This document shows, piece by piece, positions 2,849 to 9,680 of a stretch of 64,000 nucleotides of DNA (the stretch's first letter is position 1; each line of letters begins with the position of its first letter). The position numbers and the translations under genes are program-made. Location: positions 2,974,501 to 3,038,500 of the forward strand of contig NZ_CP087952.1 of assembly GCF_028752835.1 (NCBI RefSeq), written 5' to 3'. The notes under the pieces were generated by a model, which did not search any database, was not told the origin of the DNA, and saw only the letters and a list, made by a program, of their open reading frames with translations. The stretch comes from Desulfosarcina sp. BuS5 (lineage in GTDB: Bacteria > Desulfobacterota > Desulfobacteria > Desulfobacterales > BuS5).

Positions 2849-3600
2849 GCTACAGGATTTGTTGAGTTTTGCTCACTGAAACCATGTTTTGGTAATTGTT
2901 TGATATTTGCAAGTTGGATTGAAGTACAAAACTATGGCGTCTAAAAATGGCTGCTACGTGTCAAATTTTAATGCCCGATATTTGGACATCGTTCTCAGAA
3001 AGTACCGACTGAGCTTAGATCATGCTCATGTTCATACCCATACGCATATCTAACTTATTTTGAGTGCCAGAAACAAGGAAAATTTTCAATATGTCAATCA
3101 GTTACAAAAGAATACATGTTCCCCAAAAGAGCGTCAAGCTAAACACGGTTTCCATGAAAAGACCGTTCTGTATGACTCACGAGTGATATCTTCAACCGTC
3201 TTGGAGCTAAAAATAGGGCAGCGGTCGAAGGTTGATTCAGATTCCCTGATACAAAGCCCGATATAACTAATTACGCTCAACCCAACCTGATAAAAACCGG
3301 ACTTTTCATTATTGCTCTTATGTGCCAGGCGTCGGTAACAAGCAACTGCCCAGCTTTCACAATTTTCTTTTGCTCTATGCCTGCAAATGTCTTGCGCATA
3401 TCAAAATGTAAAGAGACGTAAAGAGTCATTATGAAAATCGTGTTTTTCGCTCGTTTTTTTCTCAACAAAGTAGGCTTTTCGTAATTCAGCTATGCCTGAG
3501 GTTACTGCTCTGTTTGAGATAGCCGCTTTAGTATATTTTAGGTTAATGCGACAAATATTGATCATAGACAGTGCGATAGCTCATAATGTCGCAAACTGTA
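2849..3600. other. Gene-poor stretch right of the IS
   Basis: About 750 bases in which I see no convincing gene. The frames present (3060-3266 plus, 3277-3468 minus) have no recognisable domain, no good ribosome site and unconvincing composition. The stretch may be decayed cassette DNA. No palindrome of attC type was found until about 3600. Confidence 0.45.
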
Positions 3601-3601
3601 G

Positions 3602-3806
3602 AACGCGGCTGTTGAGCCGCGAGAATCGCAGGCACTGGCTGAAAAAGGCATTTTTTTTTCAGCCAGTGCTGAGAATCGCAGTCGGCTCCAACGTCCTTGA
3701 TAGGTGGAGCGTGAGCGGGAACCTATCAAGGACGTTGGAGGAACTCGACAGCCGCGATAAGTGGACCGTGTGCGTAGCGCAGCGGAGCTCACGGTCCACT
3801 TATCGC
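3602..3806. repeat. Cluster of nested long perfect hairpins
   Basis: Three near-perfect hairpins lie side by side. The first pairs 3632-3646 with 3655-3669 (15 bp) and is flanked by the direct repeat GAGAATCGCAG at 3621-3631 and 3671-3681. The second pairs 3686-3705 with 3721-3740 (20 bp, loop 15). The third pairs 3754-3770 with 3790-3806 (17 bp, loop 19). A fourth outer pair, CGCGGCTGTTG (3604-3614) with CGACAGCCGCG (3746-3756), encloses the first two. The loops contain GGAGCGTGAGCG and TGCGTAGCG, like the loop GAGCGTAGCG of the attC at 10828. They may be modified or stacked attC stems; this is inference. Confidence 0.6.
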
Positions 3807-3810
3807 AGAA

Positions 3811-3923
3811 GTCAGTGGCAGCCAGGGCATAAATTCCTTTCAAAAAAGCAACAAATACACATAATGCCGATAAAACTTAAAGTCGCGAGTCCCTGGCTGT
3901 CAACTGCACTGACATGTTATACT
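3811..3923 (-). repeat. Probable attC after the 109-aa cassette gene
   Basis: On the minus strand the stop of the 109-aa gene lies inside GTATAAC (an R''-like 7-mer, 6 of 7 to RYYYAAC). An arm GTCAGTG...CAGCCAGGG follows, which pairs with CCCTGGCTGCCACTGAC at 3811-3827, leaving several unpaired bases. The distal R' box is not obvious, because the hairpin cluster at 3602-3806 begins immediately beyond. Placement relative to the gene stop is exactly as in the better attC sites of this window. Confidence 0.5.
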
Positions 3924-4246
3924 GGATATGCTTTCATACCAGCTCTCATTGCACCTTCAACAGTTCCATCAACTAGTTCACTTCCAGGGAAAAAGCATTC
4001 ATCAGGGTCATATATTTCAGTACTCCATTTAAATATTGCAAACTCCCATTCGTCGATTTCTTTAAAATACTCCATACGGATTACAGGCTCTTTTTTACCA
4101 TATGCTATCCTGTCAAGATAAAGAAATCTTCCTTGAAATCTTGCAATGTAACGAACGTCTATTGTTTTAAGTTCCTGTTGATTGAATTTTTCTACGATTA
4201 CAGAAATTTTTTCTCGTATTTCATCAGGTATCAGTTTTTTCCCCAT
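3917..4246 (-). CDS. Hypothetical cassette protein, 109 aa
   Basis: An intact small acidic protein of about 109 residues starting MGKKLIPDEIREKISVIV. I chose the ATG at 4246 over an upstream in-frame TTG at 4252, because AAGGA lies at good distance before the ATG. It has alternating charged helices and several aromatic residues (RYIARFQGRFLYLDRI; EWEFAIFKW) but no motif I can name; no signal peptide or membrane segment. It starts 20 bases after the attC at 4266-4335 and its stop codon overlaps the next attC-like site, a tight cassette arrangement. Function unknown. Confidence 0.7.
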   Translation of the reverse strand: MGKKLIPDEIREKISVIVEKFNQQELKTIDVRYIARFQGRFLYLDRIAYGKKEPVIRMEYFKEIDEWEFAIFKWSTEIYDPDECFFPGSELVDGTVEGAMRAGMKAYPV

Positions 4247-4265
4247 AATCAATCCTTATTTTGAA

Positions 4266-4335
4266 GTATAACGTCCAAGCTCAGTGGCGAGCAACCGCCG
4301 CAGGCGGTTTGTGAGTCCACTGCAGCGGCTTGGTC
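4266..4335 (-). repeat. attC half interrupted by group II intron
   Basis: A strong imperfect palindrome: CCAAGC-CAGTGG-ACTCACAAACCGCC pairs with GGCGGTTGCTCGCCACTGAGCTTGG, and the cassette-side 7-mer GTATAAC/GTTATAC is at 4266-4272. The opposite (R'') end, which should follow the GGCTTG arm, is missing because the intron at 4336 starts there. Insertion of group IIC introns into attC sites in the orientation opposite to the cassettes is an established pattern, and the orientations here agree with it. Confidence 0.6.
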
Positions 4336-5013
4336 GTGTGCCGGGCACGGCACGTATTCTAAAGGGTGCGATGAGCATGCCCTTTAATTTTAAGCTCATC
4401 AAGTTCCAAACCCAGCCCGATGGAGGCGAAGGGTATAGCGATATGGCAACCGGGTATCCAGCGATGGTGCCTGGAAAGGAGGCCGCCCTGCCACGGTAGG
4501 GTATCGCAAACACACGGGGCGATGTACAAGAACCGAGTTGAGGCGGTTTTGGTGGGACGAGCCTGCAACACAAGGCAAAGTCCTCTATCCATCTTAAGCC
4601 AAAGACGTATACTCGGCGCTCATGTGCGGAAAGATACGTGTTCACCCCGGGAGATCTGCCGCGTTGTCCATATGGACTGATCAAACCGTAAGGGGCGACC
4701 ATCACGCAGCAGAAGTCAGCAGATGGCATAGTAGCCGGTGGAAACGAGCTCCACAGCGTGGGGAGGTCTCACCCCGGTGAAGGCCTGAACGGTGCCCGGC
4801 CGAATGGCTTGGGTAAATGGTTATGGTTGAGAAAGAGCGTTTTCTTACCTGCATATTGCAACATTCGTTGACATGCCGGTAGCGTTGCGTTCCCTAAGAC
4901 CAGGCAGACCAATCTTTATTAGGTCTGTTGTAGCCAGCCGAATCGCCGGATACGCGATCCGTATGTCCGGTGGTGTGGGAGGGGGTAGCCGTGAGGCTAC
5001 TCCCTATCCCTAT
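4336..5013 (+). mobile_element. ORF-less group II intron
   Basis: The 5' end GTGTGCC fits the GUGYG start of bacterial group II introns. Near the 3' end, 4945-4970 folds as domain V: GGATACG pairs with CGTATGTCC, leaving the hallmark 2-nt bulge, with a CGC triad just upstream. Next comes a domain VI hairpin (GGGAGGGGGTAGCC, GTGA loop, GGCTACTCCC) with an unpaired A at about 5006, the likely branch point, 7 bases before the predicted end CCCTAT at 5013. At about 0.68 kb there is no room for a reverse transcriptase, so mobility would need one in trans. Short frames inside it are not genes. Confidence 0.75.
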
Positions 5014-5026
5014 AGGCGAAAATGTC

Positions 5027-5263
5027 CTATGTCAAGGGCTGACCCCATTGCTTGTTCGGAATTATATAACCGGATGTTACTCCGTATTTCTTTGGTAAAA
5101 ACTCTGTTAGCCATTTACGGAGATATGCTTCTACACCTTGGCCATGTGCTACTTGAATTGGACGATTCTGCGTTTGCTCAAGAATTTTATCGAACTCAGA
5201 TAGGATGTCTTTTCTGTTTCTGTGAAACTCTTTCCAACCATGTTGACCGTAACAGTTATCCAA
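5027..5263 (-). pseudogene. DUF6602-like cassette gene, 3' truncated
   Basis: A 78-residue frame begins with TTG at 5263 behind a strong AAGGAG. Residues about 18-68 (DILSEFDKILEQ ... AHGQGVEAYLRKWLTEFLP ... GVTSGYII) resemble the N-terminal part of DUF6602 proteins, often found among phage-defence and integron cargo. The frame ends soon after SGYIIPNK, only 13 bases from the intron end, so the rest of the gene has been lost in a rearrangement at the intron. It lies in the cassette position downstream of the attC at 5289-5349. Family name is from memory of the motif and moderate in confidence. Confidence 0.55.
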
Positions 5264-5288: not shown

Positions 5289-5349
5289 GGTTAACGCCGC
5301 TAATCAGCCGCGCAGCATTTTTGCGTCGGCTGCATTAGCATTGTTGGGC
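5289..5349 (-). repeat. attC site, 61 bp
   Basis: On the minus strand: GCCCAAC (R'', perfect RYYYAAC) at 5349-5343, then GCTAAT-G-CAGCCG paired with CGGCTGATTAGC, ending GTTAACC (R', 6 of 7 to GTTRRRY). One extra G on one arm gives the extrahelical base typical of attC. The stop codon of the upstream higA-like gene lies inside the site, and the next cassette gene begins 26 bases beyond it. Confidence 0.75.
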
Positions 5350-5983: not shown

Positions 5984-6101
5984 AGCCCAACGATGAACTC
6001 ACCGGCCGCCAACATGCGGGGCAAGACCTTCCGCAAACGACAACATTTATGCGGAAGAGAGCGTTTAAAAAAAAGCGCCGCGGTTGGCGGTCGGGTTCCA
6101 G
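5984..6101 (-). repeat. attC, distal part (split by intron 2)
   Basis: The cassette-side box GTTGGGC (perfect GTTRRRY on the minus strand) is at 5990-5984. The arm GTTGGCGGCCGGTGAG pairs with AACCCGACCGCCAAC, which lies directly against the intron end at about 6102. Between the arms are smaller pairs, including a CCGCATAA...TTGCGG segment and an 8-T run. The matching R'' box GCCCAAC is on the other side of the intron at 9693-9699. Joining the two exons restores a complete attC of roughly 135 bases. Confidence 0.65.
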
Positions 6102-7325
6102 GTAGGAGCATCGGTTACCCGACGCCCCCCCTACAGACCCGTACGTGAAGATTTCCCTCATACGGTTCCTCGGTTCAAATCCTTTTTACCGGATTATCAA
6201 CCAAACAGGCGACACCCCGTTTGGCGTATAACTTTGCAGCCCTTACGGCATCAAATATTATGGACTATTCTGGGTAATGGCAGTGGGTATGTTGTGCGCA
6301 AGTCCTCGAACATTACTTCGCCCTTGTGACTTCTTCGGCTTAACCATCGACGCCATGCTTTCTCAGTATATTCAAACACAACTTCCAGCGCTTTGTAGTT
6401 ACTTTTTACACCAAAGTACTGGTAAAAACCTCGCAGTTTACTGCAAAGAATCTCATACTGCTCGGCCATTGGCTTATGACGGTTATCCTTGCACCATATC
6501 CATATTCTCTTCATAAAACGGCTTGAACGCTTTCTTGCCGTCTTTTTCTTTATTACCATGTACCCTTTTAATGATTTTGACCAGTAAAATGTAAACCCTA
6601 AAAAATCAAACGTCCCGTTTCCCTTTCCGCTAATGCGTTTGGAAAATCGAATCAGTTTTGTCTTTTCCGGGTGAAGTGACAGCTCGAACTGTTCGAACCG
6701 CCTGGGTAATACATCCATGACACGCAATGCGTCTTTTTCATACTCGAACCCGAGGATGAAATCATCCGCCCAGCGTATGATGGAGCATCTCCCTTTCATC
6801 CGGGGGATCACTTCTTTCACGTACCAGTCATCTAAAACATAATGAAGAAAGATATTACTGAGCACAGGGGAAATTACTCCTCCCTGTGGAGTGCCCGTTT
6901 CAGAGTACGTCAGGTTGCCTTCCTCCATTACGCCTGCATTCAACCACTTCCCTATCAGGCGAATCATTCCGCCGTCACTTACTCTCCGACGTATCATGTC
7001 TTTAAGTAACTCGTGATTAATATTGTCAAATAGTCCTGTAATATCTGCGCTTACTATCCAGCTGATATTCTGCTTCAAGCATTGCTCACGTAAATCTTTG
7101 ATTGCCATGTGTTGGCTCCGACCTTTTCTGAATGCATGGGAAAAATTGTAAAAATTCCTGTCAAATATGACATTCAATATGGCTGCTGCTGCTTTCTGGA
7201 CAATTTTATCCTCAAGTACAGGTATGCCAATTGGACGCTTTTCCCCTCCTTCCTTGTCTATCCAGATACGCTTTACAGGAGACGCAACGTACTGTCCTCT
7301 CCGCAGTCGTTCATACAGATTATAG

Positions 7326-8633
7326 CAGTAGTGTCCGGTTAAGTTTTTGCATATAGCATTTGCTCTTTGATAATCAGATTATTAGACCATACGTTTTTTT
7401 CGTCAGTACGTAATTCGTTCTGGATGGTATTTCTAAGCTGACGAATCCTCTTTATTGATACAGGTTCATTAAACTGTTCATGGCAGTATATGGCCATAAG
7501 CAGGTAGGTTATTAACCCCGCAAGGATTTGAACCATCAGGCCATATCTACTGTGAGCAATCAAGTGGTACACTTTTAAATGTTTCTTCCACCATTTGAAA
7601 AAAGTTTCGATATCCCATCTAAGCTTATAAACGGTTGCAACCTGCTCGGCTGTAAGATCATAACGATCAGTTGCCACAAAATATTTGACACCGGCAATTT
7701 TATAACCAACCAGTCGAACCGGCTTTCTGGTCTGGTTTACCCCAGGAGTGCCAAGAAGAACCACAGCATCATAAAAAATATAGCTGTCGGGATCAACAGG
7801 CTGCTCTTTGATAATAGTTCTTGTTGTTTTCGCTTTGATGCGGCAAACAAAATGTTTTTTTTCATCCTGAAGAAGATCAAAATCCTTATGTGATTGATAC
7901 CCCCGATCCATGATTCCTGTTTGGCCTTTTGTAAGGATAGACCTGACAAAGGGGCGTTCAGCGCCATTTCCATTTGTCAGATGAATTTTTATAGGAATCT
8001 TGCGATTGACATCAAAGCCGAAATGGCCTTTTGCTTTTTTAGCGCCTTTTCTGTAATCAGCCCAGTACATGGACAGAACTGCATCAATTAAAGATCCATC
8101 AATGGAAACGAGTTCACCGAGATCTGAATAATTTGATGGTAAAGCATTTTGTGCCTGGCTGCAAAGAGCTTGAAAAACATATTCAAGCTGTTCAAGCCCT
8201 CGAGAATTGATAATTTCGGAAAAACTGCTACGACTGATCCCTCCATCTGGAGCGACACATTCTTTGGCAAAATCGTCTTCTTTAAGGTGTTGAATAAGAT
8301 CACGAGCTGATTCATGTTCTTGTAGATGGAAAAATATCAGTGCGTGAAGCTGATCTTCAAAAGTCATTTTCAATGGCCTGTGACCTCGGGATTTAAGCTG
8401 TGGCGTGTCAGGAAAAATCTTTTGCAAAGGTTTGAGAAATCGAGCATGAGATTGGGGATTAAAATTCTTTTTTGGGATATTGAATATGTCCATTTTTGTC
8501 TTAACTCCTTGTTATAATTATATTTTATAACAAAACGATAAAAAATTTTTATTTGGTTTGTCAAGTAAAAAATGAACATTTTTCTAATTTTTTTATCCCA
8601 TATAACATGCAAAAACCTAACCGGACACTACTG
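7326..8633 (-). mobile_element. IS4-family insertion sequence, 1308 bp
   Basis: Terminal inverted repeats run inward from CAGTAGTGTCCGGTTA at 7326 and from the complementary end at 8633, with about 26 of 27 positions matching. A perfect 9-bp target duplication, AGATTATAG, flanks it at 7317-7325 and 8634-8642. It carries one intact transposase and interrupts the intron-encoded reverse transcriptase. Perfect duplication and near-identical ends suggest a recent insertion. Confidence 0.95.
7339..8493 (-). CDS. IS4-family DDE transposase
   Basis: 384 residues, full length. The N-terminal part (residues 1-90) has the DUF4372-like opening with FEDQLHALIFFHLQEHES. The DDE core shows Asp in LVSIDGSLIDAV, Asp in GIMDRGYQ and the IS4 YREK signature YKLRWDIETFFKWWK. 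The C-terminal helix region LIAHSRYGLMVQILAGL is typical of the same group. It is bounded by the inverted repeats of the IS. The gene looks intact and could be active. Confidence 0.93.
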   Translation of the reverse strand: MDIFNIPKKNFNPQSHARFLKPLQKIFPDTPQLKSRGHRPLKMTFEDQLHALIFFHLQEHESARDLIQHLKEDDFAKECVAPDGGISRSSFSEIINSRGLEQLEYVFQALCSQAQNALPSNYSDLGELVSIDGSLIDAVLSMYWADYRKGAKKAKGHFGFDVNRKIPIKIHLTNGNGAERPFVRSILTKGQTGIMDRGYQSHKDFDLLQDEKKHFVCRIKAKTTRTIIKEQPVDPDSYIFYDAVVLLGTPGVNQTRKPVRLVGYKIAGVKYFVATDRYDLTAEQVATVYKLRWDIETFFKWWKKHLKVYHLIAHSRYGLMVQILAGLITYLLMAIYCHEQFNEPVSIKRIRQLRNTIQNELRTDEKNVWSNNLIIKEQMLYAKT

Positions 8634-9680
8634 AGATTATAGAGGTTTTGATCAAGATTTTCGGCATACTCCTTTGCCGTAACCTTGTCCACTCCTGCAG
8701 ATTCGCTTTTCCGAATTTTACGAAAGGATTGTTTCAGTAAATCAAAGTCTATCCGATGGACTACTGATGTAAATACCAGTTCATGATTATTTTGAGCAAG
8801 TAGCTCGATTTTGATAAGGGATGACCCACCTGTTAACACCGGTGGTTGTCCCCATTCTATCGGTCTGGAATTGCAAGCGACCGTTCTTGCAATTTCTCGG
8901 CTTTTTGTTGATATGGTTTGTGACATCTGTGTATCTCCCATAATTCCTGCCAAAAAAACGTTATACCCTGCTTCACCTTCCCTGCAGTGGGTCGCTTGGG
9001 CATCACTTCCCCACCTTTCCGATCAAGATAGTTCAATTCTTAATCATCGGTACTATGATCTGCTAAGACTTCCGAATGTTTATCTCAGGTTCGTTCGCTC
9101 TTCGCTATCCTCCCCTGATACCTTGTATCGCCCGTCTTTTAATGTTTGTGTTTCTGCCAATGGCAGACTCGTTGCAAGGCGGGACATTCCTATGCAACGC
9201 CGGGATTTCGCTTGCGCTGGATTTCCTGTTACCGTTCTTTTTACCCAAGGAAACATCCGGGTCTCCCAAGTTCCCGAGCTACCCCTTTGAGTACATGCCC
9301 TGGTCTAAGACCCCGGTGGTGTCCTGAATACTTGCCTTAGCATATTCAGGACTGCTGCCTTCCGCTGTCTCCAAAGCGTCGGCTTTTTCCTGCAAGCAGG
9401 ATTATCACAATGACCACAACCATACATTTTTCGGGGCTCAATACAGAGCCTGCAATCTTGCTCCGTCCAGCTCCAGACTCCCGTTACCGGGTTTACCTGT
9501 GGACTTCGCTACTGACCTGCTGGTTAGTCTTTAGTCAGGTGGGACTATCTTAACATCAATGCCAGAGCAAGCCCTGCAGAGATGAAGGAAACAAACCGTT
9601 TCCCGAGCACCCACTTGGTAACAATATCGAGTTTCAAAGACCTTGTGTCTTATCCCAACGATTCGGATTTATCTTGGCAC

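Follow-up and report, generated by a model that had tools for sequence, protein, structure and literature searches.

The intron at 4336-5013 (+) of the window (the whole stretch of 64,000 nt that was analysed) probably belongs to a non-autonomous lineage of ORF-less group IIC-attC introns that is served in trans by class C RTs. We infer that splicing and reverse splicing would be promoted, via DIVa, by the class C RTs of RT-bearing introns of the same family. The evidence comes from the intron itself, its attC target, its copies in the same genome and its relatives across the order.

Ends, domains and fold of the intron

The intron is a full-length group II intron of 678 nt, delimited by Rfam matches and by its ends, which were read in the sequence. 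Domain I matches RF02001 at 4455-4641 with 102.8 bits (gathering 32), a part of domains II and III matches RF01998 at 4678-4785 with 45.7 bits (gathering 35), and domains V and VI match RF00029 at 4941-5013 with 36.6 bits (E 1.9e-5), just below the gathering value of 40. An earlier note on this DNA, made from the letters alone, had suggested such a comparison with group II models; the RF00029 model ends exactly at 5013, the proposed 3' end. The termini GTGTG...AT follow the GUGYG...AY pattern of group II introns, domain V has an AU bulge, and the bulged A of domain VI is located at 5006, seven bases before the 3' end. All three marks named in that note (the GTGTG start, the 2-nt bulge of domain V and the bulged A seven bases from the end) can be read directly. 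No RT or RT remnant was found inside 4336-5013 by tblastn with the RT of the family, so that, together with the Rfam matches, the description as a 678-base intron without a protein holds. With conserved domains I-VI, including domains V and VI, and conserved ends it is a group II intron, and its splicing is predicted. The predicted fold beats 20 of 20 shuffles (z -4.3). The features of the intron are as follows:

4336-5013 (+): full-length ORF-less group IIC-attC intron, 678 nt (Rfam, alignment with 17 other full-length ORF-less introns, no RT)
4455-4641 (+): domain I core (RF02001)
4567-4570 (+): EBS1, AACA (covariation with the 5' exon over 40 introns)
4678-4785 (+): part of domains II/III (RF01998)
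4811-4941 (+): domain IV without ORF, 131 nt (with homologues in almost every ORF-less member)
4845-4882 (+): DIVa-type hairpin at the maturase-binding position (compensatory changes, helix 3)
4903-4929 (+): distal hairpin of domain IV, in the place of the ORF of RT-bearing relatives (helix 6)
4942-4974 (+): domain V (RF00029, helix 7)
4975-5013 (+): domain VI with bulged A at 5006 (RF00029, helix 8)

The attC target and the surrounding cassettes

Group IIC-attC introns are located in the R'' of the attC bottom strand, opposite to the cassettes (PMC7923331). The same location and orientation were found here. The following features flank the intron:

3917-4252 (-): gene of the next cassette, 111 aa, no Pfam match (sequence, Pfam)
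4267-4335 (-): attC of the DUF6602-type cassette, R' GTTATAC at 4267-4273, the bottom strand being the 5' exon of the intron (sequence, ssDNA fold, sister attC)
4332-4335 (+): IBS1, GGTC, 2 of 4 pairs with EBS1 (exon/EBS1 comparison)
5014-5017 (-): remainder of the attC R'' (GCCT), 3' exon side (sequence)
5027-5263 (-): DUF6602-type gene, truncated, in the cassette with the intron-bearing attC (Pfam PF20247, 12-43/104)

The 5' exon ends with GGTC and the 3' exon begins with AGGC (5014-5017). Across the intron, R'' reads GCCT^GAC on the minus strand, one change from RYYYAAC. Since the insertion lies inside R'', only AGGC belongs on the 3' side. To judge from the sequence, the attC is complete and holds the intron within R'' on its bottom strand, opposite to the cassettes. 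The earlier note had correctly placed the start of the intron at the edge of an attC arm and its orientation opposite to the cassette genes. Its assumption that half of the attC had been lost on the other side was rejected, as 5014-5017 completes R''. It had further proposed a cut by the intron in a DUF6602-like gene. This gene does encode a truncated domain (profile positions 12-43 of 104), but its reading frame closes with a TAG of its own (5027-5029), nine bases past the attC remnant. The similarity stops at a distance of about 40 bases, so that there is no sign of a cut by the intron. An uninterrupted sister attC, 78% identical, is located elsewhere in the genome, 1.1 kb from an integron integrase.

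Further integron features were observed. An unoccupied attC-like site (window 5291-5349, bottom strand ending with TTGTTGGGC) is situated beside a HigBA cassette. A nested run of long hairpins (..GCGATAAGTGGACCGTG..) at window 3600-3830 lies beside or within attC-like sequence, and a similar run occurs at another integron locus, close to an intI (L166). The genome (G000) encodes three integron integrases above the family cut-off (C1:2180843, 2958878 and 3966820), one of which (2958878-2959822) is found 19 kb left of the intron.

EBS1-IBS1 pairing

The EBS1 loop covaries with the terminal four bases of the 5' exon (22/1/0/13, Fisher p 6e-9). Of 23 introns with AACA, 22 have a ..GTT site; all 13 with ACAA have TTGT, and L246 has EBS1 ACCA and the site GGGT. 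This covariation fixes both intron ends. The sole exception among the AACA introns is the window copy, whose IBS1 GGTC is paired at 2 of 4 positions; in its clade, L188 and L260 are examples with full EBS1-IBS1 pairing. As in group IIC, the family uses a short EBS1-IBS1 interaction with an upstream hairpin replacing IBS2.

The target consensus TTGT/T is not seen at the window site, which reads GGTC/A; the clade has (T/G)GTT/A with a matching EBS1, and sister introns have TTGT/T. This departure is a one-base shift on the same target, and the covariation shows that the family pairs with attC in either of two registers that differ by one base. As R'' is expected to read ..AAC, the window IBS1 is most simply explained by a T-to-C change that followed the insertion, an imperfect original site being possible. 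With its fold kept and its IBS1 weak, the window copy may splice poorly now. In two ORF-less family members from G024 (L059 and L060), a GC-rich hairpin, CCCGC-AAAAA-GCGGG, replaces the EBS1 loop; L060 is devoid of the domain II region.

Copies and RT genes in the same genome

Searches identified four other full-length relatives in the 4.18 Mb genome, three ORF-less and one RT-bearing. The ORF-less copies (L002, L003 and L004; 712-714 nt) are about 99% alike. The RT-bearing copy (L012:2001-4838; 2,838 nt) has a class C RT gene and a core 96-99.6% identical to the three. Fragments of further copies are present in L013, L063 and L066. Near-identical ORF-less copies at different genome sites show that the ORF-less form itself must have moved in the past.

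The RT-bearing copy is the kind of full-length relative that the earlier note had proposed to look for, and its RT is broken. Two inserts, each of roughly 0.45 kb (L012:3277-3761 and 4070-4495), the first with inverted ends of about 29 bases, interrupt the gene (C1:2766381-2768620, 213 kb from the window intron). Among solved structures the RT best matches the GsI-IIC RT (1.2e-86), and it reaches 61-64% with Firmicute IIC RTs versus 33% with other RTs of the genome; RT-bearing members of the family thus have the class C RT of group IIC. The remaining RT matches that were examined share about 33% identity; those whose RNA was seen belong to RF02005 introns, the neighbouring intron in the window included. 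As the sole class C RT is broken and the others are of this distant kind, no intact cognate RT was found among the RT matches examined in this assembly (97% complete); the related intact RT that trans-mobilisation calls for was thus not seen in this genome.

The neighbouring group II intron is located at 6096-9548 (-) of the window (RF02005 at 9301-9548, DV-DVI at 6096-6170), and a DDE transposase element at 7339-8493 disrupts its RT gene. The earlier note had regarded this broken RT as a possible maturase. It is broken, but it is not the relevant RT: it belongs to another class with about 35% identity, and the neighbour, an RF02005 intron, was rejected as a maturase source. About 31 same-score copies of one 484-aa group II RT (e.g. 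L020-L039) and some 30 other RT matches constitute a heavy intron load for one 4.2 Mb genome.

Two loci deserve mention. At L163 8125-8484, the insertion of the L003 copy divides an R'' box (GCAT^AAC) whose TAA would terminate a HigA-type antitoxin gene; the HigA-type frame hence runs into the intron. Moreover, L163 (8607-10772) and L012 (400-2565) share the left flank, the attC and the 5' part of the intron with 97% identity over 2.17 kb and diverge within domain IV, with an ORF-less intron at one locus, an RT-bearing intron at the other and unlike right flanks. A recombination between intron copies that linked one attC to two genes would fit this arrangement.

Relatives across the order

Within the order, 91 of 291 genomes match the intron, and many of these contain ORF-less copies of full length. 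Matches beyond the order (E 1e-15) were limited to short pieces of the intron ends, mostly DV-DVI. Plasmids and phages were rejected as carriers: plasmids match in DV-DVI alone, phages not at all. Full-length introns were assembled by their two ends from the genomes of the order, Desulfobacteraceae MAGs and Desulfogranum japonicum contigs, and a tree was built on the ribozyme without domain IV. It comprises 21 ORF-less introns (618-921 nt) and 10 RT-bearing introns (about 1.9 kb, plus a 2.8-kb copy); the sample was drawn with an ORF-less query, and the smaller number of RT-bearing introns applies within it.

The window intron falls into a nine-member clade from eight genomes and seven GTDB families, all members of which are ORF-less (99/99). 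The RT-bearing L244 is among the next neighbours of this clade. A search with DI-DIII only, in mostly draft genomes, revealed no RT-bearing intron as near as the ORF-less sisters; close ones would have been found, since their cores match the query. With regard to a possible horizontal transfer between families, intron cores (84-90% identical) were compared with rpoB (69-72% at all positions, 82-86% at codon positions 1+2); the many fixed positions of the ribozyme limit what this comparison can say. The window intron is, on this tree, not a solitary orphan but apparently one member of an order-wide ORF-less lineage. Protein-less introns had been regarded as rare. A partial literature search, outside which some key works lie, yielded no paper on ORF-less IIC-attC introns in this order.

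Domain IV and the origin of the ORF-less form

Apart from L207, all ORF-less members have a homologous domain IV of 121-149 nt. The 5' part of this domain can be aligned with the beginning of the RT frame in RT-bearing members, and the window intron and most of its clade no longer have the ribosome-binding site and ATG. A hairpin has been kept at the DIVa position and a second one is found where the ORF would be. Among 17 sequences, 22 of 51 DIV-DVI pairs are changed on both sides. Two-sided changes amount to 91 cells versus 28 in shuffles; no shuffle out of 500 attains this value, and the maximum for slid structures is 24. This covariation points to a base-paired structure under selection, and an ORF-deleted domain IV that is shared and retains DIVa is the mark of trans-mobilised ORF-less introns.

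Many independent recent ORF deletions, in place of an old ORF-less lineage, are an unlikely source of this pattern. In the core tree the ORF-less introns do not form one clade (AU p 5e-62 and 7e-8 for two groupings), at least four changes between the ORF-bearing and ORF-less state are forced by starred branches, and L207, which keeps the start codon and the first 33 RT codons, is a clear case of an independent recent deletion. However, the whole window clade is ORF-less, and the homology of domain IV in all forms save L207 extends to introns with differing cores: L192 and L193, both from G186, are 99% identical in domain IV and 81% in the cores. Domain IV has thus been exchanged between cores, too, and the pattern points to one ORF-less domain IV that was passed on by descent and recombination.

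It is still less probable that the window copy lost its ORF by chance and has been drifting since as a solitary, decayed relic. Its weak IBS1 pairing, a genome without an intact cognate RT and 8 private changes at otherwise unanimous columns (more than in most relatives, mostly C/G to T/A) speak for decay. Yet 4 of these 8 changes form two compensated pairs, so that the rest of the intron apart from IBS1 seems maintained; domains V and VI and the ends are intact, domain IV is shared, and ORF-less sister introns exist in seven other genomes.

Protein supply and spread

An intact class C RT of 446 codons is present in the carriers G089 and G251, and the carrier G186 has a 463-codon frame at 61%, probably also intact. 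The class C RT of the genome studied here is broken. None was found at E 1e-40 in the carriers G164, G060, G017 and G024, whose assemblies are 92-99% complete drafts in which absence is weak evidence. These four carriers would suit self-splicing that is independent of a maturase, like that of C.te.I1, and needs no RT. Such independence is improbable, as the DIVa hairpin retained with covariation suggests a protein partner, intact class C RTs accompany the introns in G089, G251 and probably G186, and spread to new sites needs an RT. Equally improbable is transport within integron cassettes by IntI instead of retrohoming: the attC location in several genomes and the left flank and attC common to two loci differing beyond the intron agree with it, but relatives occupy different attCs, some sites (e.g. 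L004) are not attC-like, and EBS1 matches the exact site, which IntI would not require.

Service in trans by RT-bearing introns fits both the distribution of RTs among the carriers and the retained DIVa, as shown for T. elongatus (PMC2882425). Sequence comparison shows a complete ribozyme with EBS1 and domains V and VI that took the usual IIC-attC route into the bottom-strand R'' of a cassette attC. It has lost the RT gene and kept a short domain IV with a DIVa-type hairpin, and its nearest relatives in other genomes are ORF-less as well. According to the proposal, class C RTs of RT-bearing family members would act in trans through DIVa in splicing and reverse splicing. Later, the only class C RT of the genome would have been broken by two insertions, leaving the ORF-less copies stranded, the window copy also with a weakened IBS1. 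ORF-less copies would hence outlive their helper. The earlier suggestion of a maturase in trans is supported in outline; as supplier, the distant, now broken cognate class C RT would take the place of the neighbour. Tentatively, one might even envisage a long-lived, SINE-like ORF-less IIC lineage throughout the order, which borrows outside class C RTs, swaps domain IV between cores and provides a recombination handle joining attC to new genes.

Comparison with known systems

An ORF-less lineage in many genomes, some carriers of which have no matching RT, would be a bacterial analogue of short interspersed elements. It would offer a natural set for testing the service of many introns by one common maturase, which has been proposed as a stage towards the spliceosome, and it bears on the idea that IIC-attC introns help make integron cassettes.

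With group IIC-attC introns of the S.ma.I2 type (PMC7923331), the lineage shares the class C RT (in RT-bearing relatives), the insertion in R'' of the attC bottom strand opposite to the cassettes, the upstream hairpin in place of IBS2 and the short EBS1-IBS1 pairing. In contrast to them it is protein-less, and the clade has (T/G)GTT/A sites instead of TTGT/T, the latter form occurring in sister introns with another EBS1. C.te.I1 from Clostridium tetani (PMC4424553, PMC3919590) is likewise ORF-less in a genome without a related RT. It differs in target and class, and the window intron has RT-bearing relatives in other genomes of the order.

The TeI3 introns of Thermosynechococcus elongatus have a common ORF-deleted domain IV in which RT remnants and DIVa are kept, movement by a driver protein in trans is presumed, and ORF-less copies exceed ORF-bearing ones (PMC2882425). 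The lineage described here resembles them in its shared ORF-deleted domain IV with DIVa, in the presumed driver in trans and, within the present sample, in the excess of ORF-less copies. Unlike TeI3, which is not of class IIC, it targets attC, occurs in many genomes and families, and the assemblies of several carriers contain no RT partner. As a precedent, the T. elongatus set comes closest, but it is confined to one genome.
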